A DNA stretch of 56,447 nucleotides, taken from the IMG/VR virus record IMGVR_UViG_3300023181_000034, positions 1 through 56,447 of that record; one strand, given 5' to 3'. Below are positions 4,955 to 56,447 of this stretch, piece after piece (the first letter of the stretch is position 1; the number at the start of each line of letters is the position of its first letter). The DNA comes from a virus. A program made the position numbers and the translations under genes. Under the pieces are notes generated by a model. That model made no database searches, was not told where the DNA came from, and saw only the letters and a list, made by a program, of their open reading frames with translations.

Positions 4955-4985
4955 GTAGGTCGCGCACCACACAAATCTTTTTTCT

Positions 4986-7380: not shown

Positions 7381-8133
7381 ATGATCGGGATATATAAAAT
7401 TACTTGCTTAAAAAATAAGCGTGTCTACGTTGGGCAGTCTATTGATGTAGATTTAAGACGTAGTTTTTATCAAAGGATAGACTGCAAAGGCCAGCCTAAG
7501 TTGTTTAATTCCCTTAAAAAATACGGTTGGTCGTGCCATAGTTTTGAAGTCGTTACAGAGTGTGATGTTGACGACCTAAATAAGTGGGAAAGATATTATC
7601 AGGATTTGTATTCGGCATGTGGAAAGAATGGATTAAACTGTAAATTAACAGGATATTCAGATCGAAGCGGTAGTCATTCAGAAGAGACTAGATTAAAGAT
7701 GTCTGAGGATAGAAAAGGTATTAACAGAAATACTCCTGAAAGAATTGCTTTATTAATCGAGTCAAATAAATCCAGAGTATGGAAGCAAGATTCTATTGAG
7801 AAGATGAAAAAATCAAAGACAGGAGTTAAGCTTAATTTGTCACCAGAACAACGACAAAAATTAAGGGATACATGGCTAGGTAGAAAGCATACACCAGAGA
7901 CAATAGCAAAAATGACTGGTAAAGTTAGATCAGAACAACATAGAATAAATAACATGAACGCTAACAAAGGAAAAACATCATTCAGTATGAGTAAAATAGT
8001 TTTACACGAAGCAACAGGGATATATTACACCAGCGCAAAAGAAGCCGCTACTCTTAATAAAATTACTTACACTTCTTTAATTAGTAAACTTAATGGCAGA
8101 AAAGAGAATACAAGCGGGTACATTTACGCTTGA
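7381..8133 (+). CDS. GIY-YIG homing endonuclease with NUMOD-type tail, 250 aa
   Basis: The N-terminal 90 residues are a GIY-YIG nuclease: IGIYKIT (GIY), RVYVGQSID (YIG), then a conserved basic residue in DLRR and the later Glu in RYYQDLY context. Residues 100-200 hold repeated NUMOD3-like DNA-binding motifs (SEETRLKMSEDRKG; TPETIAKMTGK; SEQHRINNMNANKG). The C-terminal 50 residues (LHEATGIYYTSAKEAA) look like a NUMOD1-type HTH. It sits as an insertion between terminase and portal with its own promoter. No intron is evident; it appears free-standing. Confidence 0.92.
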   Translation: MIGIYKITCLKNKRVYVGQSIDVDLRRSFYQRIDCKGQPKLFNSLKKYGWSCHSFEVVTECDVDDLNKWERYYQDLYSACGKNGLNCKLTGYSDRSGSHSEETRLKMSEDRKGINRNTPERIALLIESNKSRVWKQDSIEKMKKSKTGVKLNLSPEQRQKLRDTWLGRKHTPETIAKMTGKVRSEQHRINNMNANKGKTSFSMSKIVLHEATGIYYTSAKEAATLNKITYTSLISKLNGRKENTSGYIYA

Positions 8134-10489: not shown

Positions 10490-10836
10490 GGGGGCGGTTA
10501 TGGATTTGACTGAGTAAGAAGTAATTAATGTCATGCACAGGAGTATCTACTGTTAAATGGATGCAAAGCTATAAAAGGCAAAAACACAGAAGCGAAAGTT
10601 ATTCAACTAGGTTCAATGACTTTCAATGATGCAATTGAATTGGTTTCTAACGACATTATTGTTAGAGAAGCAGCTTAGAACTGTAAAACGGATTGTCTGA
10701 TCTTTAAACAGAATGGTGGAACCCTTGCTTTTCCAAAGCGAGCCCTTTACTAATCAGGTAAAACAGATTGAAAGCATGTAGTAACGCATTAATCAACTAG
10801 TACGACAGGACAAGGGTTCGACTCCCTTCGCCTCCA
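10490..10836 (+). ncRNA. ssrA: One-piece tmRNA (transfer-messenger RNA), 347 nt
   Basis: The tRNA-like half is unmistakable: 5' GGGGGCG (10490-10496) pairs with 3' CGCCTCC (10829-10835, one G-U), followed by discriminator A10836, and the T arm AAGGG-TTCGACT-CCCTT lies just before. The degenerate D region reads GGTTATGGATTTGAC, as in other tmRNAs. ATTAATG near 10530 pairs with CATTAAT near 10790 (long P2 helix). CCA is not encoded. An internal ORF opens at about GGC 10577 and ends in GCA GCT TAG (10678), giving a tag that begins GKNTEAKV and ends NDIIVREAA. The role is to rescue stalled ribosomes and tag the nascent protein for proteolysis. The tag is about 33 residues, longer than the usual 8-15, and ends REAA rather than ALAA. 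Confidence 0.92.
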
Positions 10837-10910
10837 AGATTACGATGTTAAACTACCTCCACGCGGTGTAGTCTGGGTAACGCCAAATGTTTAACGAACA
10901 ATAAAAAGAT

Positions 10911-15741: not shown

Positions 15742-15754
15742 AAACACATAATAA

Positions 15755-15784
15755 TTGAATACCAATTAAAAGTTAGTATATTGC
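15755..15784 (+). promoter_or_regulatory. Operator-promoter (copy 5), weak palindrome
   Basis: TTG (15755-15757) lies 19 bases from TATATTGC (15777-15784). The palindrome is degenerate (ATAATTGAAT), but the -7 element and spacing match the other copies, and the transcript begins with a kissing-loop leader. Confidence 0.65.
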
Positions 15785-15790
15785 ATTATA

Positions 15791-15889
15791 TTAACGAAGC
15801 GGAATTTCGTTAGGCATATTAAAGAACTTTAGAGGCTATTTGAACATGGTTGCAGGATTCCGCCCTGATCCGGTTTAAGTAGCTTTTTT
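15791..15889 (+). promoter_or_regulatory. Structured kissing-loop leader RNA, locus L5
   Basis: Hairpin 1 is TAACGAA (15792-15798)/TTCGTTA (15806-15812) with the 7-base loop GCGGAAT. That loop is the exact complement of ATTCCGC (15857-15863), which lies inside hairpin 2 (AGGCTATTTGAA 15833-15844 with TTTAAGTAGCTT 15874-15885, some G-U). The conserved linker AAAGAACTTTA is at 15821-15831. The same architecture recurs at four other loci with different paired sequences. The 3' stem ends 20 bases before the start codon, so translation control is plausible. Confidence 0.7.
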
Positions 15890-15904: not shown

Positions 15905-16465
15905 ATGAAATTGGAATTACGCCACTTAGCGCCCTACTTGCCTTATAAACTTAAAGGTAGATTTAAATTAAAGGATGTGGTTAACACATATAAAGACGAA
16001 GTAAGAGAAAAAGAGTTGAACACTGATAGTGCAACTTTTTTCTTGCTTTATTGTAAACCGATACTAAGACCTTTATCAGATATGATTATTGATATTACTT
16101 CGAATGGTAAGACAGTAGTTCCAATGATTGAAATACTTAAAATAAGTGAGCCATATTCCGCATTTACTTTGGATGATATAGATCGATTAAGACTAAAAAT
16201 TACACATGAGCATTACAGCACTTCAATTGGTGAAACTGATACTTATACCGCTGAATATGTAATAAAAACTGGAAATATGGGTGATCTTACTCATCATTTT
16301 CAATACTGGGAGCAATTACAAAGATTTTCAAAACGTGACGTTACTAGAGACGTAACGCTTGGTACCGCAAGGCAGCTAGAAATGTTCCAAAAACTATTTG
16401 AATACCATTTTGATGTTTTCGGACTGATTGAACAAGGATTAGCTATTGATATAAACATAATGTAA
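15905..16465 (+). CDS. Hypothetical protein behind leader L5, 186 aa
   Basis: The N-terminus (MKLELRHLAPYLPYKLKG) and the C-terminus (HFDVFGLIEQGLAIDIN) match the ends of the 130-aa protein at 47652 (MKLELKHLAPYLPYGL; HFDVFGLIHAGLAIDIN), so the two are paralogs with different middles. This family is frequent in phages of Bacteroidota and has no known function. Here it stands alone behind its own promoter and structured leader. Confidence 0.8.
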   Translation: MKLELRHLAPYLPYKLKGRFKLKDVVNTYKDEVREKELNTDSATFFLLYCKPILRPLSDMIIDITSNGKTVVPMIEILKISEPYSAFTLDDIDRLRLKITHEHYSTSIGETDTYTAEYVIKTGNMGDLTHHFQYWEQLQRFSKRDVTRDVTLGTARQLEMFQKLFEYHFDVFGLIEQGLAIDINIM

Positions 16466-18299: not shown

Positions 18300-18325
18300 A
18301 GCCTTCCATAACCGGAGGGCTTTTT
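18300..18325 (+). terminator. Rho-independent terminator between convergent genes
   Basis: AGCCTTCC (18300-18307) pairs with GGAGGGCT (18314-18321) with one G-U, followed by TTTTT. It ends the rightward transcript and, read the other way, falls at the 3' end of the leftward gene whose stop is at 18324. Confidence 0.75.
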
Positions 18326-27600: not shown

Positions 27601-28501
27601 TGATCTTAGCGGAAAATATTTAAGAACAGGAGACAAACAGACCGATGAGATCATAAAAGTCCTTAACGAAGGAGGTAGCCTACCGGGTATGTCTCGTGAG
27701 TTTGTAGATAAAGTGTTAGGAAATGCTGGGGCCAAAAAAGTAGGTGATTTGTCAAAGCTTACATTGAGACAATTAAAGGATTTATCAGATAGCATTAATA
27801 TAGATGAAATAACATCTAAAACACTAGCAAATCTTATTGAATCAGTTCAAGCCGCACAAGACCTAGACAATGCGCTTGCAGCGGATCGCATAGGCGCCGG
27901 GCTCGATACCATTGTAGACGAATTCATGACGAACCTGGAAGATGGGGTCGGAGGTATTGAGGATGTGCTGACCAAAGCAATACGTCGTGGGCTACTGAAT
28001 TCACTTAAGGGTGATATTACAGATAAGTTCTTACAGGATTATTATACTATGCTTGATAAGGCTCTTACTGATGGGAACATTAGTGCTGATGAAGATGCTT
28101 TATTAAGAGAGCAGTTGAAGAAAGCTGATGAATACGGAAAAGCTAGGCTGGATTACATCAATAAAGCAGCGCCAGAGGTTGCAAGCGGTGCATCTAGCGC
28201 AACGTTGGCAGGGGCAATTCAAGCGATCACGCAAACACAGGCCGATAAATTGGTTGGTGTATTTACCGGGGTTCAGGTTGCTACGATAAAGACTAACGCT
28301 GCGATTGGGGTGAGTAACGATTGGTTGGGTCGCACGTACAGCCTACTTACCGATAACCTTAGATCAATCCAAGCCAACACCCTACGTACAGCCAATAATA
28401 CTGACAGGCTGCAAGCGATGGAGGGTTACTTGTCTACGTTGGTACGGAAAGCAGATGACAACAAGAATGCGTTGGGGGGATCGGGTAGGCCTGTGATATA
28501 A
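24602..28501 (+). CDS. Tail tape measure protein, 1299 aa
   Basis: A very long helical protein with a tape-measure N-terminal domain (the region around AQAAMTRTMRA and the later TALTSSYKSFTGAVV-like segment), long charged coiled coils (residues 500-800), and a Gly/Ala-rich hydrophobic part (about 850-950; GLGIFSSGVGIFSAGISG). At about 0.15 nm per residue it predicts a tail near 195 nm. The stop codon TAA (28499-28501) lies inside operator-promoter copy 6. Short segments of both ends recur in the 225-aa protein at 41076. Confidence 0.93.
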   Translation: MAKGKGLQFQTTVDISQSKARLLELKRLISEVGGISMSGGNSANFTAAQAAMTRTMRASLLETERLRQEGVRLRNEYESGRISAQQLAAQTRALNEQRRQEAAALRAARTVQTAANGSYQEAQNRLRQLSVQIRSVEGGFSGLGRVQQARIAEYRRLNDSLTEFDRRMGNNQRNVGNYSSAISGVKGQLTGLITTYVSAAAAIGLVTSAFSQSLKSSAVRTSLEFTFGSVDLADAKLEQLLDTANRLGVNYNALTSSYKSFTGAVVASNFDFQEGERIFNAVAGASSKLKLSSEDTEGALRALQQMISKGNVQAEELRGQLGERIPGAFSIAARAIGVTETQLNKMLQKGEVLAADLLPKLATELEKTFGLESTTAVEGLNAETERFFNMFSGAVAESSNINKFFANVVGGFNEIFGTIFKMVNSDTWGEFWTRLIDGAGPAEAIKNIGKSYDQASKAIKNSLNITAGDSKKALFALEEVRIGYDKATKALEQYKAGVKDGSLKDGGDVTISALENTVKVAEARLKALEKLQPAKKSVVIGETASEKAARLKAEREAERELNAQRILQKKITDLKNEANRKTLTKDEEEVQTVRDKFSKIAEEIRLFNANPKNKLKVDGSGLEPAMKAQIVSIEYKQDTDKLKESLEVQKGLYEQYESYRTELGKKAADDRFGAEIDTTKKYGDVLQAEYSKVLEQGSKTGFTGAMTERMKVLEKQIREEGVVENKRQDDLMKSIISFDNEVKSLNEKYEQDRIDVLAKGGGKDLEVLTKNHNLKLAALGDAHLKEIDAFKELYNGIDRLSDQNARKVIGNAEDALKALKAKGVVISKELEAELKRLFADSKLAIADRLPERLIALANQISNVASSVSGVDENFGKVLGTVGNIVGQVGNIKKGLLDFNKPGATGLEKLTAGLGIFSSGVGIFSAGISGIKTISNLFGDLKAGAEQQAYAMELQNKQSDALNKSLQRQIELLDDVYGTKRIAEYEIARKKAEENRLQYLSDLSGKYLRTGDKQTDEIIKVLNEGGSLPGMSREFVDKVLGNAGAKKVGDLSKLTLRQLKDLSDSINIDEITSKTLANLIESVQAAQDLDNALAADRIGAGLDTIVDEFMTNLEDGVGGIEDVLTKAIRRGLLNSLKGDITDKFLQDYYTMLDKALTDGNISADEDALLREQLKKADEYGKARLDYINKAAPEVASGASSATLAGAIQAITQTQADKLVGVFTGVQVATIKTNAAIGVSNDWLGRTYSLLTDNLRSIQANTLRTANNTDRLQAMEGYLSTLVRKADDNKNALGGSGRPVI

Positions 28502-28536
28502 CAATTTGTTATTGTTGTTATATTTAACTATATTTG
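28498..28536 (+). promoter_or_regulatory. Palindromic operator-promoter (copy 6)
   Basis: ATAACAATTTGTTAT (28498-28512) overlaps the tape measure stop codon. TTTG (28505-28508) lies 20 bases from an exact TATATTTG (28529-28536). A kissing-loop leader follows. Confidence 0.85.
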
Positions 28537-28540
28537 AATA

Positions 28541-28637
28541 AGCTAAGGAGGTGAGATCAAATTAGCGGTTCAAAAACATTCATGAAAGCCTGTTAGCAGA
28601 GTAGGAATCTCACTCCGAAATGCTGACAGGTTTTTTA
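28541..28637 (+). promoter_or_regulatory. Structured kissing-loop leader RNA, locus L6
   Basis: Hairpin 1: GCTAA (28542-28546)/TTAGC (28562-28566), whose loop holds GTGAGAT (28551-28557). Its exact complement ATCTCAC (28607-28613) lies within hairpin 2, AAAGCCTGTTAGCA (28585-28598) with TGCTGACAGGTTTT (28621-28634). The linker CAAAAACATTCA (28571-28582) sits between. The gene starts 13 bases after hairpin 2. Confidence 0.72.
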
Positions 28638-28649
28638 AGTAAAAGGAGT

Positions 28650-29177
28650 ATGGAAAAGCAATACAGAGATATTGAAATCACAGAAGGACTACGATTATTT
28701 AATCCTAGATACGGGGAGGGAGTAGTATCTATGGTAGCTAAAAATGCAGGAGTAATGCTAATAGATTATGGTGAAAATAATTTAGAAAGTCATACATCCA
28801 ATGCTAAAGATATTCTACTTATTGATGGGGATTTTTGGCTAAGTAAAAGTGAATACCTAAACAAAATTAACGCTTATAAGGAAGCAGGTGATAGGGTAAA
28901 AGATAAAAAATTTCGTATTGTCGAGCAATGGTTAGTCCGGGGTGGGAAAGAGTTTTACAACGATATTTACCAAGAATTATCTTACCAATTAGAAGAAGAA
29001 GTTGATTTTTTTTCTTTTTCGAAACTAAGAAAGTCTAAAAAATGGAAGGCAGTCGATCAGGAAAAAATAAAGTACTTTATCCCGCCTGTTTGGTATTCAT
29101 TTGGTATTAGGGAAATAAAAGAGGTAGATATGAATGATAAAATCATTTTTTATTCAACTCGAAAAAAACCATTTTAA
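28650..29177 (+). CDS. Hypothetical protein behind leader L6, 175 aa
   Basis: I do not recognise it. I take the ATG at 28650 because an upstream ATG (28620) lies inside the leader stem and adds residues unlike the rest. The N-terminal part (LFNPRYGEGVVSMVAKNAG) has the look of a small beta-barrel, and the C-terminal half is basic and helical. It is AT-rich compared with the tape measure gene, as expected for an inserted accessory gene. Confidence 0.7.
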   Translation: MEKQYRDIEITEGLRLFNPRYGEGVVSMVAKNAGVMLIDYGENNLESHTSNAKDILLIDGDFWLSKSEYLNKINAYKEAGDRVKDKKFRIVEQWLVRGGKEFYNDIYQELSYQLEEEVDFFSFSKLRKSKKWKAVDQEKIKYFIPPVWYSFGIREIKEVDMNDKIIFYSTRKKPF

Positions 29178-29607: not shown

Positions 29608-29637
29608 AGCCTTACCCTAATCCGGTAGGGCTTTTTT
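29608..29637 (+). terminator. Rho-independent terminator
   Basis: AGCC-T-TACC pairs with GGTA-G-GGCT across a short loop and is followed by six T. It ends the accessory block (28.6-29.6 kb) inserted between tape measure and tail tip genes. Confidence 0.75.
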
Positions 29638-38993: not shown

Positions 38994-38995
38994 TT

Positions 38996-39034
38996 ATTAC
39001 AATTTGTTATATTGGTAATAAATAGTTATCTTCG
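38996..39034 (+). promoter_or_regulatory. Palindromic operator-promoter (copy 7)
   Basis: ATTACAATTTGTTAT (38996-39010; one mismatch to copy 1) with TTTG (39003-39006) 20 bases from TATCTTCG (39027-39034), a weaker -7. The spacer holds GTAATAAA. A kissing-loop leader and an HNH gene follow. Confidence 0.75.
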
Positions 39035-39040
39035 TTTCAT

Positions 39041-39140
39041 GCTTGCCTGATCTGAAGTACGTAAGCCATATAAAGACATTTAAAAGAAGTTTTTCCCCAA
39101 AGTAACCGAGTCAGATCCGGCGAAACAGGGAGAAACTTTT
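39041..39140 (+). promoter_or_regulatory. Structured kissing-loop leader RNA, locus L7
   Basis: Hairpin 1: GCTTGC (39041-39046)/GTAAGC (39061-39066), loop contains GATCTGA (39049-39055). Its exact complement TCAGATC (39111-39117) lies inside hairpin 2, AAGTTTTTCCCC (39087-39098) with GGGAGAAACTT (39128-39138). The linker TAAAGACATTTA is at 39071-39082, identical to locus L9. The HNH gene starts 19 bases further. Confidence 0.75.
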
Positions 39141-39156
39141 TAAGTATAAATGTATT

Positions 39157-39783
39157 ATGGAACCTAAGATATTACAAATAAGAAACACAGTTAATTATTT
39201 CATTTCTAGTGAAGGGTATTGTTTTAAATCAAAAAATGGAAAAGATGTTGAAGTAGAGGTAAATGTGGTTAGAAGAATCCCTTACGTTCTTATTTGCGGC
39301 ATCAAGCATAACTTAGGTTATTTAATGGCTGAATATTTTTTGGCAGAGTCTAGCGATATAGGTCTTTACGATAGAGTTTCTTTTAAGTTTGAGAATAATA
39401 GATTGATTTTAAGTAGCATAAATATAAAAAGGTATTTAGAAAAGAATAGTCATGAACAAAGGCAAATTTTTCAATATGGTTGTGACATTAAGGTTAGTAA
39501 CCACAATAATAGAGTAGATTATCAGAATAGTATTAGCTCTTTAGATATTTTAAATGCGCTAAAAAGATCAAATTTTAAATGTTTGTATTGTGGGGATCCT
39601 ATTAAACCAAAGAAATGGCATTTAGACCATGTAATTCCTTTATCCTTGGGTGGTAAAAATACTTTTACAAATATTGCCGCAACATGCATACACTGTAATA
39701 TGATGAAGGGCGCATTCGGTATGGATAAATTTTTATCCCAATGTAAAAAAATAACTAGATATAATAGTGAAATTATAAGCTGA
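39157..39783 (+). CDS. HNH endonuclease behind leader L7, 208 aa
   Basis: The C-terminal HNH module is clear: FKCLYCGDPIKPKKWHLDHV then IPLSLGGKN, with a second pair in CIHCNMMKG. The N-terminal 130 residues are unassigned. It has its own promoter and structured leader, in keeping with tight control of a nuclease. Two zinc-ribbon genes follow directly (1- and 10-base junctions). Confidence 0.9.
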   Translation: MEPKILQIRNTVNYFISSEGYCFKSKNGKDVEVEVNVVRRIPYVLICGIKHNLGYLMAEYFLAESSDIGLYDRVSFKFENNRLILSSINIKRYLEKNSHEQRQIFQYGCDIKVSNHNNRVDYQNSISSLDILNALKRSNFKCLYCGDPIKPKKWHLDHVIPLSLGGKNTFTNIAATCIHCNMMKGAFGMDKFLSQCKKITRYNSEIIS

Positions 39784-42661: not shown

Positions 42662-43012
42662 GCTTAATAAATTATCTGTCATTTAAAACAAAAACATCCT
42701 GCTTGAATGCAGACAGTAACGGAATTCCCTTTATAGTTAGTGTTAAAGTAACCATGGGAGAGCAAGGTTGCCTGTTACAAGATATATCCAATATCTGTTG
42801 TCTGAGGTAGAGTTACATGCAAGAGTAGCAGTGAAAGACTGAAAATCTTTAGCCCTATGATGAAGAGATACTTATATTTCTGAAAAGAATAAGTAGAGGT
42901 AGAGTGTAATCCATTGGAAATTGGACAGAATGTTTTTAAAAGTCTACACGTTTGGCTAGGCGTTGGGATAAATAACCAAGCTAAGCCTACTCTTCATCGG
43001 GTAGGCTTTTTT
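42662..43012 (+). ncRNA. Orphan structured RNA, about 350 nt
   Basis: The transcript is inferred from a consensus promoter at 42627-42657 and a strong terminator at 42983-43012, with no credible ORF between. Local pairings seen by eye: CTGC/GCAG hairpin near 42700, GTAAC/GTTAC enclosing 42716-42778, GATAT/ATATC near 42781-42795, AAAGA-CTGAAAA-TCTTT (42834-42850), and TACTTAT/ATAAGTA near 42870-42895. The segment GAGGTAGAGT occurs twice. I do not recognise the class; it lacks tmRNA, RNase P and SRP hallmarks. It lies between accessory genes and the lysogeny module. Confidence 0.65.
42983..43012 (+). terminator. Rho-independent terminator of the orphan RNA
   Basis: AAGCCTAC (42983-42990) pairs perfectly with GTAGGCTT (43001-43008) across the loop TCTTCATCGG, followed by six T. 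A textbook terminator. Confidence 0.85.
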
Positions 43013-43313: not shown

Positions 43314-44501
43314 TCACCCAAATATATCATCAGCTGCAGCATCCAATACATCATCCTTCCTCAGGTCGTTTAGGTATGCTTGATGTACAGCAAGCGAACT
43401 ATGCCCAAGCAACTCCATAGTGATCATTGGATTGTTAATCTTATCAATTGCCATACGCGCAAACGTGTGCCGGGCAATGTGGGAGGTAAGAGGTTTTGTT
43501 ATTCCGGCCATGATGGCAACTTGACGCAGATATTTGTTGACAACCGAAGTACAGTTTTCCTTCATCTTGATGCGGGCACGTTCATTTTGGAATGCGGTTA
43601 GTGACTTCATAGGGGCCCACTTGAATAACGAGAATAGCCTTTGGTGACGACGAGCCGCCCACTTATCAACTATCGCCACGGCACTAGGTATGAGCTTTAC
43701 ACTTTCCTCACGCCCTGTTTTATCAGCCTTATAGTAAAACCTACCATCTTTAAATTGAGCGGCACGAGCTTGTAGAACGTCTCCAACACGAATACCGCGT
43801 AAATATACTTGCATTAGAAATATATCCCTTGTAGCTTCAATGTTTGTGTTTTCTTCTAGTTCCAGGTTCTCTATCGCTTCCAATTCTGCCGCTGTCAACT
43901 TCTGCTTTACCGTTCGCGTAGTGGTAATGGTCACGGCTTTCACCTCCCTAGTAACTCCTTTGCTGGAATAGCGCAGTATAACGCCCCTCAACAACTTTAT
44001 CTTTTTCTTAATGGTATTATTGGAATTACCCACCCGAACGCCCCCAAGCATTTTAATAAACTTACCAAACCATTTCTCATCTATGTCCTCGATTGGGATA
44101 TCGCCATCTGTTATTTGCTTCCTAATGGCGCAAATCTTATCATAATACCCTGACTTAAATTCTTTCTCCAGCCTGATTAGCTCTTGATCGAATGCGTCAT
44201 CTAGCGTCATCACGTTCCCGCGCGTTCCCAGTACAGCGCCCGCACCAATCTTACCCTGATTGAAGTCAAAAACAGCTTGTTCAGCCTTTGCGTATTCTGC
44301 AGCAATAGTTGCGTTGATCTTTGCTGAATCACCCGCCCGTGGCCTAACTCTTAACTTGCGTACATCCCAATCTGACTCCAAGCAGGATCCCAACACACGC
44401 TTGCTCCTTTTGCCGTTTATGGTGTGCATCAAAACTATTGGATATGTGCCATTAGAGTACTGTTTAGACGTATATAAGTGGAGCCTTATCGATGCTTTCA
44501 T
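43314..44501 (-). CDS. int: Tyrosine recombinase (phage integrase), 395 aa
   Basis: I start at 44501 (MKASIRLHLYTSKQ), since the 25 residues of the longer frame read through the attP-like repeats. The N-terminus is the arm-binding type of integrases from Bacteroidota, the middle is the SAM-like core-binding domain, and the C-terminal catalytic domain shows Arg in YLRGIRVGD, HIARH (H-x-x-R), LLGHSS, and the nucleophile Tyr in VHQAYL. It integrates and (with a directionality factor) excises the prophage. attP probably lies immediately upstream of the gene. Confidence 0.93.
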   Translation of the reverse strand: MKASIRLHLYTSKQYSNGTYPIVLMHTINGKRSKRVLGSCLESDWDVRKLRVRPRAGDSAKINATIAAEYAKAEQAVFDFNQGKIGAGAVLGTRGNVMTLDDAFDQELIRLEKEFKSGYYDKICAIRKQITDGDIPIEDIDEKWFGKFIKMLGGVRVGNSNNTIKKKIKLLRGVILRYSSKGVTREVKAVTITTTRTVKQKLTAAELEAIENLELEENTNIEATRDIFLMQVYLRGIRVGDVLQARAAQFKDGRFYYKADKTGREESVKLIPSAVAIVDKWAARRHQRLFSLFKWAPMKSLTAFQNERARIKMKENCTSVVNKYLRQVAIMAGITKPLTSHIARHTFARMAIDKINNPMITMELLGHSSLAVHQAYLNDLRKDDVLDAAADDIFG

Positions 44502-44740
44502 GGTGTGCTTGCTTATTTTGTGGACGGTGTGTTCTTGGTGTGCATAAATATAGAAATATATACCACTAAATACCACTAAAAGAATGCGAGAATATGCCTT
44601 TAAATGATAAAGACTAGCAATCTTTGGTAGATGCTAGTCTAATCGGTGGAGCCGAAGGAACTAATTGTAATTTTTGTAACTAGCAATATACCAATCAATT
44701 ACCTGCCATCCTCACATAAGCGGTGTGCTCTAGGTGTGCT
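44502..44740. other. Putative attP region with core and arm-type repeats
   Basis: The core candidate GGTGGAGCCGAAGGAACT (44645-44662) is the reverse complement of a tRNA or tmRNA 3' end (T-loop end, T stem, acceptor stem, CCACC). A perfect 9-bp inverted repeat AGACTAGCA/TGCTAGTCT (44611-44640) lies beside it. Five GGTGTG(C/T) motifs flank it (44502, 44526, 44537; 44722, 44733), and ACTAGCAAT occurs twice (44612, 44680). TACCACTAAA is repeated in tandem (44561-44580). This is the layout of a phage attachment site with arm-binding sites. Confidence 0.7.
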
Positions 44741-45655: not shown

Positions 45656-46417
45656 TTACAAAGAATTTAAACGTGGCGCTGGTGTCCATCCCTTAATTAA
45701 GTACAACTCTACTACCTGATCGTAATCGATTTCAAAGTCGGGAGCAGTTTTAGATTGGGCTGACTTCAATAGAAAGGGCTTCTTCTTTCCCGGGTAAAGG
45801 TATCGCTCTAAGATGTAATGGTTCATTACAATCACATAGCATTTGCCAGGAACTATCATTTTCTCGTAATCCTCTTTCGGGATCTTCTTAACTCCTATGA
45901 ATGAGTTTTCATCAAAGAAACCTGTCATTGCCGGGTCGCTATGTCTAATCACTAAATCACATCCCTGAAACGCTCCATTTAGAAGCAGGATGTCGGGTAC
46001 TTTTGAGCTGTTAATTAATCCAGCAACACTTCCTGTCGTCAGGTGAACATTGTAGACAGAGGTAACATCGATCTGCTCGTCGATATCCCTGTCCTTGTTA
46101 ATGATCCTTGAGAGTTCTTCCATAATTTTGTTTGGTTTATCATATTGTTTATGCTGCGATTTCGTGGTGGGTAGTGGGCTATTAAGGAATATATCTCCTT
46201 TGCCTTCTGTGATGAATTGTTTACTGATATTGAATTTCTCTTGAAGTTTAATCAAGATCGATAATGTTGGAAGGCGTTTGGTCTCAGCCTCATTTTCTAT
46301 TTTACTAATTGCCGACTTGTCTACATCGATGGCATTTGCCAACTCTACTTGACTTAATTTTAAAGCATTTCTCACTTTAATGAATCTAATTTTCTGAGGG
46401 TTTTCGGCAATTGTCAT
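45656..46417 (-). CDS. CI-like repressor (XRE + S24-like C-terminus), 253 aa
   Basis: An N-terminal XRE HTH (LSQVELANAIDVDKSAISKI at about 20-39) is joined to a C-terminal S24-like fold (QGCDLVIRHSDPAMTGFFDE, then FIGVKKI, then KCYVIVMNHYILERYLYPG). The usual Gly-(Asp/His)-Ser-Met motif is altered (HSDPAM), and the catalytic Lys position appears to hold Glu/Arg (ILERYL), so self-cleavage may be lost. Two operator-like GACAAATGTC sites lie in the divergent promoter region. It probably keeps the prophage silent. Confidence 0.85.
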   Translation of the reverse strand: MTIAENPQKIRFIKVRNALKLSQVELANAIDVDKSAISKIENEAETKRLPTLSILIKLQEKFNISKQFITEGKGDIFLNSPLPTTKSQHKQYDKPNKIMEELSRIINKDRDIDEQIDVTSVYNVHLTTGSVAGLINSSKVPDILLLNGAFQGCDLVIRHSDPAMTGFFDENSFIGVKKIPKEDYEKMIVPGKCYVIVMNHYILERYLYPGKKKPFLLKSAQSKTAPDFEIDYDQVVELYLIKGWTPAPRLNSL

Positions 46418-50776: not shown

Positions 50777-50778
50777 TT

Positions 50779-50816
50779 ATTACATATTGTTATATAGGTA
50801 ATAATGTGTATATTGC
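50779..50816 (+). promoter_or_regulatory. Palindromic operator-promoter (copy 8)
   Basis: ATTACATATTGTTAT (50779-50793), TTG (50787-50789), 19-base spacer with GTAATAAT, and TATATTGC (50809-50816). A kissing-loop leader follows. The promoter lies 3 bases behind the upstream stop codon. Confidence 0.8.
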
Positions 50817-50821
50817 ATGAC

Positions 50822-50897
50822 GGTAGTGTGGTAGCTACATAAAAACATTCATTCCATTGGGAGAAGCGACTACCACAATAGCTGATCCCGATGGAAT
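50822..50897 (+). promoter_or_regulatory. Structured kissing-loop leader RNA, locus L8
   Basis: Hairpin 1: GTAG (50823-50826)/CTAC (50835-50838), loop contains GTGGTAG (50828-50834). Its exact complement CTACCAC (50870-50876) lies inside hairpin 2, ATTCCATTGGG (50851-50861) with CCCGATGGAAT (50887-50897, one G-U-type mismatch). The linker ATAAAAACATTCA is at 50839-50851. Confidence 0.75.
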
Positions 50898-50915: not shown

Positions 50916-51674
50916 ATGAAAAAACATGAGTTGCTGAAATATGCGTACGACAATTACCCTAATGGGACGAAATTTAATGCCCTTAGGACATCTGATGTTA
51001 AAGTGTCAGACGGAGATCTTAATTTGATTAAAGAGTTTGGCGATATTATCATCCTTTCAGATAGTAATATACTATATGAAGCTGGATGCTGGGCTAAAGT
51101 TGTAAAACCCTCAATACTAGATGGTAAAGCATTAATAGTTGTCGAAAACTATAGGCAATTTACTTTACTTAATACCTATTTAGGGTTAAATTTAAGTACC
51201 CCTAGCACATATCCAGTTTATTATGATGCTGACAAAAAATATGGCTCTTATTCTTATACTACAAAACAAAAGTTAATCTCATTCGCGGGCTTCGCTAAAG
51301 AAATAGGCATCAAAGTGCCTAAATTTATAATTAAGTCAGAAGATGGAGTTGATTTGTATGAGGGGGATGATCTTTACACTGCCAAATTATGCAACGGAGA
51401 ATGGGTTTATGATGACTATCACGGACAACCATATAATATTAGTAAAAATTCACTTGTTGTAAGGGAACAGGATGAATACAAGGCTTTCTCCACCCGTGAA
51501 GCAGCCGAAAAATGGATTGCAGAAATGAATAAGCCTAAAGATATTGAATTAGATATTAACGCTTATGGTTCAGCTTTAATCAAACCTAGCGAAGTAGTAT
51601 TCAATGGTTACGTCAATAGAATAACAGGGGCGCAAATTGAGTCCATCTACAAAGCCTACCAATCCCTCCAATAA
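50916..51674 (+). CDS. Hypothetical protein behind leader L8, 252 aa
   Basis: The N-terminus (ELLKYAYDNYPNGTKF) resembles that of the DCL/HNH protein at 55727 (TLLKKAKAILNDNPIGTVF). A segment near 190 (KAFSTREAAEKWIAEMNKP) is a motif I associate with phage proteins of unknown role. It is unlike any enzyme I know. It has its own promoter and structured leader. Confidence 0.7.
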   Translation: MKKHELLKYAYDNYPNGTKFNALRTSDVKVSDGDLNLIKEFGDIIILSDSNILYEAGCWAKVVKPSILDGKALIVVENYRQFTLLNTYLGLNLSTPSTYPVYYDADKKYGSYSYTTKQKLISFAGFAKEIGIKVPKFIIKSEDGVDLYEGDDLYTAKLCNGEWVYDDYHGQPYNISKNSLVVREQDEYKAFSTREAAEKWIAEMNKPKDIELDINAYGSALIKPSEVVFNGYVNRITGAQIESIYKAYQSLQ

Positions 51675-55524: not shown

Positions 55525-55544
55525 TTTTTTTTTTGCCTAAAATT

Positions 55545-55583
55545 ATAACATATTGTTATTGTTGTTATAAAATTGTATATTTA
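55545..55583 (+). promoter_or_regulatory. Palindromic operator-promoter (copy 9)
   Basis: ATAACATATTGTTAT (55545-55559), TTG (55553-55555), 20-base spacer, TATATTTA (55576-55583). A kissing-loop leader follows. Confidence 0.82.
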
Positions 55584-55592
55584 CACTTCAAA

Positions 55593-55701
55593 TGGGTTGA
55601 CAGCCTAAAGACATTTAAACATTATTCCCCTGTGAACTATCTAAGCGCCTTTAATCGGTGCACATAAGCTGTCAACTTTAAGTTTATGGGGGAGTAATGT
55701 T
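55593..55701 (+). promoter_or_regulatory. Structured kissing-loop leader RNA, locus L9
   Basis: Hairpin 1 is weak (TGGG/CCTA around 55593-55607), and its loop region GTTGACAGC (55596-55604) is exactly complementary to GCTGTCAAC (55668-55676). That complement lies inside hairpin 2, AACATTATTCCCC (55618-55630) with GGGGGAGTAATGTT (55688-55701). The linker TAAAGACATTTA (55606-55617) is identical to L7. An extra hairpin (GCGCC/GGTGC) sits in the loop of hairpin 2. Confidence 0.75.
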
Positions 55702-55726: not shown

Positions 55727-56371
55727 ATGAATAAATCTACACTGCTCAAGAAAGCTAAGGCTATTCTTAATGATAATCCTATCGGAACTGTATTTGATAA
55801 TACAAGTGAGGATTACAGATTCTTATTAAGAATATTTCAAGGTCACCCGGAATATCATATAAAGGTTGGTTCTGGAATAGCTAACGTATACACTGGTAAA
55901 GGAGAAACTTATAATACGAGATGTTTCTTTCTGACTCGTGTTGATGGTAGTAGTAGTGATATTTCATACATCAGATCTATTAACGGGGCCACAACTAAAA
56001 TAAGTGATATTAAATGTGCTTGCCGATCAGCAATAGATGATATTATAATTCAATTTAAATCATCCGTCCGTTTTGGATTTGATACTTGCCCGATTAGTGG
56101 GCACATTCTTTATACTCAAAATACTCATATCGACCATTATGATAAGAAATTTGATGAATTATTTCAGATATGGATTAAAAGTAAAAATATTGATTCTACC
56201 CATCAGTTATTGAATGACACTACCAAAGATCATGAGCAGAAAATATATTTTGTCTCCAGGTCGATACGTGAAGATTTTATAGCTTTTCACAATGCCAATA
56301 CCAACCTAAGAGCAGTCACTAAGGAGGCTAATCTCTCAACTTTAAAACGTAAAAAACCAATAAAAATATGA
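55727..56371 (+). CDS. DCL/DUF3223-HNH nuclease-like protein behind leader L9, 214 aa
   Basis: I use the ATG at 55727 (MNKSTLLKKAKAIL); an upstream ATG at 55697 lies in the leader stem. Residues 1-90 are the DCL/DUF3223 domain (FQGHPEYHIKVG, RCFFLTRVDGSSSDISY). The C-terminal half contains CPISGHILYTQNTHIDHYDK, an HNH-like metal site. The end reads across the contig junction and overlaps the first gene (ATGA). DCL-HNH proteins are thought to be nucleases. Confidence 0.78.
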   Translation: MNKSTLLKKAKAILNDNPIGTVFDNTSEDYRFLLRIFQGHPEYHIKVGSGIANVYTGKGETYNTRCFFLTRVDGSSSDISYIRSINGATTKISDIKCACRSAIDDIIIQFKSSVRFGFDTCPISGHILYTQNTHIDHYDKKFDELFQIWIKSKNIDSTHQLLNDTTKDHEQKIYFVSRSIREDFIAFHNANTNLRAVTKEANLSTLKRKKPIKI

Positions 56372-56447
56372 GGCGATTAAACAGTATTCAAAACTTAGAT
56401 GATATGCTTACGGGAGTATATTATGATGAGTCAAAAGGAGCATTTCA
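56313..56447. repeat. Right copy of terminal direct repeat
   Basis: Matches bases 1-134 apart from one extra A (56321-56322). It contains the 3' end of the DCL/HNH gene and the 5' end of the gene at position 55. Removing one copy gives a circle of about 56.31 kb. Confidence 0.9.

Follow-up and report, generated by a model that had tools for sequence, protein, structure and literature searches.

Predicted kissing-loop leader RNAs in Bacteroidota phages: a new RNA family of proposed attenuator-like kind

Phage genome

The window analysed here is the whole viral record of 56,447 bases. A direct terminal repeat was observed (positions 9-134 recur as 56322-56447), and the record is therefore probably a complete phage genome. 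Both a terminase gene and a tmRNA gene are present, together with an integrase gene (43314-44576, minus strand) and an HTH repressor-like gene (45656-46417, minus strand). Relatives were found in a prophage of Pedobacter nyackensis (terminase 79% identical) and in IMG/VR (97%). The window phage is a Bacteroidota phage and is temperate-looking.

Five leaders in the window

At five loci the same order of elements was observed: a promoter TATATT(T)G, a 5'-terminal hairpin (HP1), an A/U-rich linker, a GC-rich hairpin (HP2) and a start codon. The apical loop of HP2 is complementary to the loop of HP1 over 7-9 nt; the complementary segments are referred to below as kiss strands. The features are as follows.

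15753-15782, +, leader 1 promoter, palindrome TAATTGAATACCAATTA, -7 box TATATT at 15777-15782
15793-15811, +, leader 1 HP1, AACGAA-GCGGAAT-TTCGTT, loop at 15799-15805
15835-15883, +, leader 1 HP2, kiss strand ATTCCGC at 15857-15863, followed by TTTTTT at 15884-15889
15905-16465, +, first gene of leader 1, phrog_10841 (E 2.9e-28), unknown function
18300-18321, +, intrinsic terminator closing the leader 1 unit
28497-28534, +, leader 2 palindromic promoter, -7 box TATATT at 28529-28534
28542-28566, +, leader 2 HP1, kiss strand GTGAGAT at 28551-28557
28567-28586, +, leader 2 linker, GGTTCAAAAACATTCATGAA
28587-28632, +, leader 2 HP2, kiss strand ATCTCAC at 28607-28613, followed by a U-tract
28650-29177, +, leader 2 gene, without a family match
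29608-29632, +, intrinsic terminator closing the leader 2 unit
38995-39032, +, leader 3 palindromic promoter, -7 box TATCTT at 39027-39032
39041-39066, +, leader 3 HP1, GCTTGC-CTGATCTGAAGTAC-GTAAGC, kiss strand GATCTGA at 39049-39055
39067-39086, +, leader 3 linker, containing AAAGACATTTA at 39072-39082
39087-39138, +, leader 3 HP2, kiss strand TCAGATC at 39111-39117, followed by a U-tract
39157-39783, +, leader 3 gene, HNH endonuclease (HNH_5, E 5.7e-14)
42983-43008, +, intrinsic terminator closing the leader 3 unit
50778-50814, +, leader 4 palindromic promoter, -7 box TATATT at 50809-50814
50823-50838, +, leader 4 HP1, GTAG-TGTGGTAG-CTAC, loop at 50827-50834
50851-50897, +, leader 4 HP2, kiss strand CTACCACA at 50870-50877
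50916-51674, +, leader 4 gene, weak match to phrog_11079
55540-55581, +, leader 5 palindromic promoter, -7 box TATATT at 55576-55581
55593-55607, +, leader 5 HP1, weak stem TGGG/CCTA, kiss strand GTTGACAGC at 55596-55604
55618-55701, +, leader 5 HP2, 20 bp with a side hairpin, kiss strand GCTGTCAAC at 55668-55676
55727-56371, +, leader 5 gene, DUF3223 protein (E 4.4e-15), alternative start at 55697

The window was scanned, blind to the earlier coordinates, for hairpin loops able to pair, over 7 nt or more, with the interior of a strong hairpin further on. The five leaders were the top five on the plus strand (scores from 37.5 to 51, the next being 29.5), and the best score on the minus strand was 33.5. 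Dinucleotide shuffles (n = 100) gave a mean of 0.21 matches at a score of 35 or more, with a maximum of 2. All five loop-complement pairs listed in an earlier sequence-only reading are present in the sequence; the fourth was present but proved one base longer than listed (8 nt, TGTGGTAG/CTACCACA), and the fifth extends over 9 nt. A linker resembling AAARACATTYA had been described for all five, which does not hold for leader 1, whose linker is AAAGAACTTTA.

The five codes are mutually orthogonal, with 7-9 nt of complementarity to their own partners and 3-5 nt across leaders. Within HP2 the kiss strand is closed by a short stem of its own (CAGG-ATTCCGC-CCTG, GGA-ATCTCAC-TCC), so that the predicted contact is a loop-loop one, more than mere complementarity. 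The HP1 of leader 5 is weak, having 4 bp including one G-U. A U-tract of the terminator type follows HP2 in leaders 1-3, a U-rich stretch is found in leader 4, and little of the kind in leader 5. Leaders 1-3 head self-contained units, each ending at an ordinary terminator. The gene behind leader 2 starts at 28650, and that behind leader 5 probably at 55727 instead of 55697. Two of the downstream genes had been taken for HNH-type nucleases; this is clear for the gene at 39157 (E 6e-14), whereas the gene of leader 5 is a DUF3223 gene for which an HNH assignment is unsupported.

Palindromic promoter

One and the same palindromic promoter had been placed ahead of all five leaders. It is common to leaders 2-5, but leader 1 has a different palindrome. 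Palindromic promoter-like repeats lie at 4985, 7317, 9646, 10342, 28497, 38995, 50778 and 55540, the first four being extra copies without a leader. Leader 4 of the window is 98% identical to its counterpart in the close relative G004, but the identity of the promoter palindrome is only 72%; both arms are altered and the palindrome is preserved, pointing to a hairpin or to a regulator site specific to the phage. The palindromic promoter characterises this phage group and stands outside the RNA class, since other members have a plain TAnnTTTG promoter. A search by promoter and linker pattern that used the palindrome of this phage was set aside, as it returned just two chance matches.

Members in other phages

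Further members with the pairing kept, for which the sequence-only reading had proposed a search, were found in dozens of further phages, both in IMG/VR contigs and in cultured phages, and 29 members were delimited by hand. The cultured phages are Flavobacterium phages 11b, morran9-1 and tooticki6-1 (two copies, preceding gp032, a NUMOD4 endonuclease gene, and gp035) and Cellulophaga phage phi19:1, whose leader precedes gp030, upstream of primase/helicase. The IMG/VR pattern scans used the promoter box and the linker only, and further members were recognised afterwards by their pairing. Members in isolate phages were located via proteins; BLAST of the leader sequences against isolate phages gave no match, because the letters change too fast. 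Several contigs carry two different leaders. The leader scan also yielded a few false positives in coding sequence.

In G004, leader 5 retains HP2 and the kiss, with a different gene downstream. A sixth leader was found in G007 (kiss CCGGCAG/CTGCCGG, HP2 of 20 bp), ahead of a gene that is HNH-like by eye and has no Pfam match. The leader scan detected none in the related Pedobacter nyackensis prophage (G006), and homologues of the leader 1 gene (L004, L005, L007) have no such leader at that gene. Matches to the linker pattern were at noise level in 301 bacterial genomes of the family, and one match was obtained in 396 of the phylum; the class is thus essentially viral, within the reach of the exact pattern.

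A covariance model built from hand-cut rows (R1) was too weak because loop and linker lengths vary: leader 4 was recovered well, whereas the remaining leaders were picked up poorly or missed. Pair counts based on these rows were excluded as evidence.

Anatomy of the class

The class promoter is TAnnTT(T)G, and HP1 starts about 3-13 nt past the -7 box, i.e., at the extreme 5' end. The linker measures 7-29 nt and often, though not always, contains TAAARACATTTA. HP2 is mostly 36-54 nt long with the kiss in its middle; in 24 of the 29 members, a distance of 16-24 nt separates the kiss strand from the 5' base of the hairpin. The five exceptions comprise two short HP2s and three leaders with an extra side hairpin (leader 5, L111 and L164).

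A feature missed by the sequence-only reading is the U-tract after HP2, present in about 20 of 23 members and weak in leaders 4, 5 and L111. At positions 1-6 after HP2, T was counted in 22, 23, 20, 19, 18 and 20 of the 23; the trimming rule for HP2 favours T at positions 1-2 and affects positions 3-6 much less. HP2 resembles an intrinsic terminator, as a stable hairpin in the 5' UTR is directly followed by a U-tract. The start codon usually lies 6-21 nt past HP2; the distance stays within 6-25 nt in most members and is 43-48 nt in four.

In these four (L236, L320, L321 and L323), the stretch from the U-tract to the start codon contains another small conserved hairpin, like AGTTATCGGTAATCTTAAAACCG. 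L166 and L169 have an 11-nt 5' segment, TTGCAACATGA, that is repeated across the start codon as GCAACATGA, giving the HP2 loop two possible partners; as a general feature such pairing was rejected, since it fails in other members.

Selection on the loop pairing

The claim of a leader RNA family in which pairing is kept while the letters differ was upheld. Own pairs of at least 7 nt were found in 26 of the 29 hand-delimited members, compared with 11 of 812 swapped pairs. Among curated leaders, own pairing of at least 7 nt was observed in 20 of 23, and 10,000 permutations reached at most 10 of 23. The lists of 23 leaders and 29 members were partly picked by pairing; a further set of 17 was not.

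This set came from candidates gathered by the promoter and linker pattern alone, with pairing unused, and reduced to non-redundant ones. For the 17 candidates with a strong HP2, a complement of at least 7 nt was present in 11 and one of at least 6 nt in 16. The corresponding values in the controls (n = 17) were 2 and 2 for reversed sequences, and 1 and 4 for identity. Candidates with a weak HP2 (n = 40, mostly chance linkers) showed no pairing excess.

L220, L245, L236 and L285 are homologous leaders with the same HP2 backbone, and L218 is a related fifth. Their kiss letters are of four kinds and have changed on both sides, which is covariation in the usual sense. In a few further leaders (L119, L156, L166 and L238), the pairing comes from a 5' segment that is less clearly looped. 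Taken from these comparisons of sequence, the predicted HP1-HP2 kissing is under selection.

Genes behind the leaders

Downstream genes encode DUF6291 and Lin1244-like proteins, which resemble replication-initiation proteins, as well as HNH/NUMOD4 nucleases, a Rha-like protein (weak match), a helicase-like protein (by eye) and small unknown proteins. The earlier statement that the genes are unrelated was borne out. In the L119 group, near-identical leaders stand ahead of at least four unrelated genes, and the role of the leader is thus generic. Its function is independent of the gene, as indicated by this group and by the retention of leader 5 in G004 with the gene replaced.

Mechanism and alternatives

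We propose that the family consists of cis-acting attenuator leaders in which HP1-HP2 kissing would tune terminator readthrough, and give this proposal an even chance of being correct. The 5' end of the RNA would lie at HP1 or a few nucleotides upstream, and HP1 would fold first. As the HP2 loop exits the polymerase, its 7-9 nt would kiss the HP1 loop, the A/U-rich linker spanning between them; HP2 would then close and form, with the U-tract, an intrinsic terminator in the 5' UTR. Expression of the operon would be set by the share of polymerases reading through, and the kissing complex would tune this share, perhaps via a factor or signal that recognises its shape and not its letters. Attenuation is favoured by where the hairpin and its U-tract lie, namely in the 5' UTR: the gap from HP2 to the start codon is too short to hold a second promoter, and any message started at the TATATTTG promoter therefore has to run through HP2. 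Against attenuation, the kiss is compatible with the HP2 stem, and how it would alter termination is hard to see; leaders 4, 5 and L111 have a poor U-tract; and with HP2 so near the start codon, a role in translation or stability would fit as well. Nor was an alternative antiterminator helix found. As a tentative and rather doubtful extension, a 7-bp loop-loop contact read by its shape and not its sequence may decide terminator passage, as a new regulatory principle in Bacteroidota phages, and the changing letters would insulate leaders from one another, within a phage or between competitors.

The sequence-only reading proposed that the 3' arm of HP2 may gate translation. This is less supported, as HP2 usually stops short of the ribosome-binding region and the U-tract comes directly after it. 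More broadly, the leader might act on translation or message life: a compact 5' pseudoknot would shield the 5' end or set the position of the ribosome, and the ribosome or S1 would land on the U-rich stretch. The place of HP1 at the extreme 5' end (about 3-13 nt past the -7 box), the rather constant spacing from the end of HP2 to the ATG and the gene-independent use are consistent with this; the T-run, however, lies exactly at the foot of HP2, like that of terminators and not as general A/U richness, and the start codon is left uncovered by HP2 in most members. We consider this reading unlikely. Rather improbable is a stable small RNA, terminated at HP2, that pairs in trans with other copies for copy counting or immunity, in the manner of plasmid copy-control RNAs or the P4/P1 CI/c4 RNAs. 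It would account for the 5' hairpin, the terminator and the fully complementary loops, for specificities that differ among paralogues and phages, and for the several members ahead of replication genes, but every loop has a partner within its own transcript, and the genes downstream are often HNH or small accessory ones as well.

The two hairpins right after a promoter heading phage operons recall HK022 putL (PMC9378689), and a put-like element, in which RNA polymerase, once bound by the folded leader, would disregard downstream terminators, was considered. Three window units end at intrinsic terminators (18300, 29608, 42983) that such a polymerase would pass, and neither a U-tract nor kissing is described for put in the accessible text of that source, which makes this reading very improbable. 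A chance origin of the hairpins and of the short complements in an AT-rich genome has a negligible probability: the scan does give a few coding false positives, but chance is contradicted by the shuffles, the pairing-free collection and the cultured phages, and is refuted by the swap test.

Relation to known systems

No family in Rfam 15, including riboswitches, c4 and ribozymes such as pistol, matched the leaders in a covariance-model search by E-value, and a ribozyme assignment was accordingly rejected. No description of the class was found in searches of open-access journal literature, in agreement with the earlier statement that no described class matches. We class the kissing-loop leaders as a new RNA family, attenuator-like in kind.

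Terminator-type attenuators and riboswitches (preQ1, crcB/fluoride, pfl) likewise have a structured, often pseudoknotted leader, which overlaps a terminator before the start codon. Unlike these, the present leaders, with a putative terminator, have hardly any conserved letters except in the linker, have no Rfam match and are not bound to a single pathway. In the ColE1 RNAI/RNAII complex, fully complementary 7-nt hairpin loops kiss and the Rop protein recognises the shape; there two RNAs are involved, whereas the kissing proposed here is inside one leader. In the pistol ribozyme, a 5' hairpin loop pairs into a following stem across an A-rich linker, but its partner is an internal strand and here it is an apical loop. 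In the immunity RNAs of phages P4 (CI) and P1 (c4), which are also leaders, an operon is regulated through complementary segments and premature termination. The same is described for the phage leader IsrK of Gifsy-1 in the accessible text of PMC4825925; the present leaders differ from all three in structure. HK022 putL and putR are phage leaders of about 70 nt with two stem-loops that act from the nascent RNA, putL directly after an early promoter (accessible text of PMC9378689). Two hairpins near the promoter are shared with put by all 29 members, but put acts on far terminators, whereas three of the window's leader units are closed by ordinary ones, and the loop-loop pairing and the U-tract are not part of the description of put in that text.

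To our knowledge, little is known about gene timing in Bacteroidota phages. This leader class, which heads replication and accessory operons in unrelated phages, some of them cultured, offers a direct handle on it. The class predicts transcript ends, loop mutations that should change expression and swaps that should restore it, and its swappable 7-nt code would supply orthogonal RNA regulators ready for use.

Other elements

A GIY-YIG/NUMOD3 endonuclease gene (7381-8133, plus strand) adjoins the terminase gene on its 3' side and has its own palindromic promoter. Upstream of gp040 in Flavobacterium phage morran9-1, a DUF805b RNA was identified (RF02914, 52 bits; L320, 800-834). The phage-encoded tmRNA (10490-10836, plus strand) lies downstream of a palindromic promoter without a kissing leader, and its predicted tag is unusually long at 33 residues, GKNTEAKVIQLGSMTFNDAIELVSNDIIVREAA. 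Right after its CCA end begins an HDV-like ribozyme candidate (10837-10894, plus strand) with a P1 of 7 bp (AGAUUAC/GUAGUCU) and a GCCAAA that is catalytic-strand-like; it scored 24 bits against RF02682, under the threshold of 44. Theta ribozymes have been proposed to free the 3' ends of phage tRNAs (PMC10879173), and by analogy the candidate could release the 3' end of the tmRNA.
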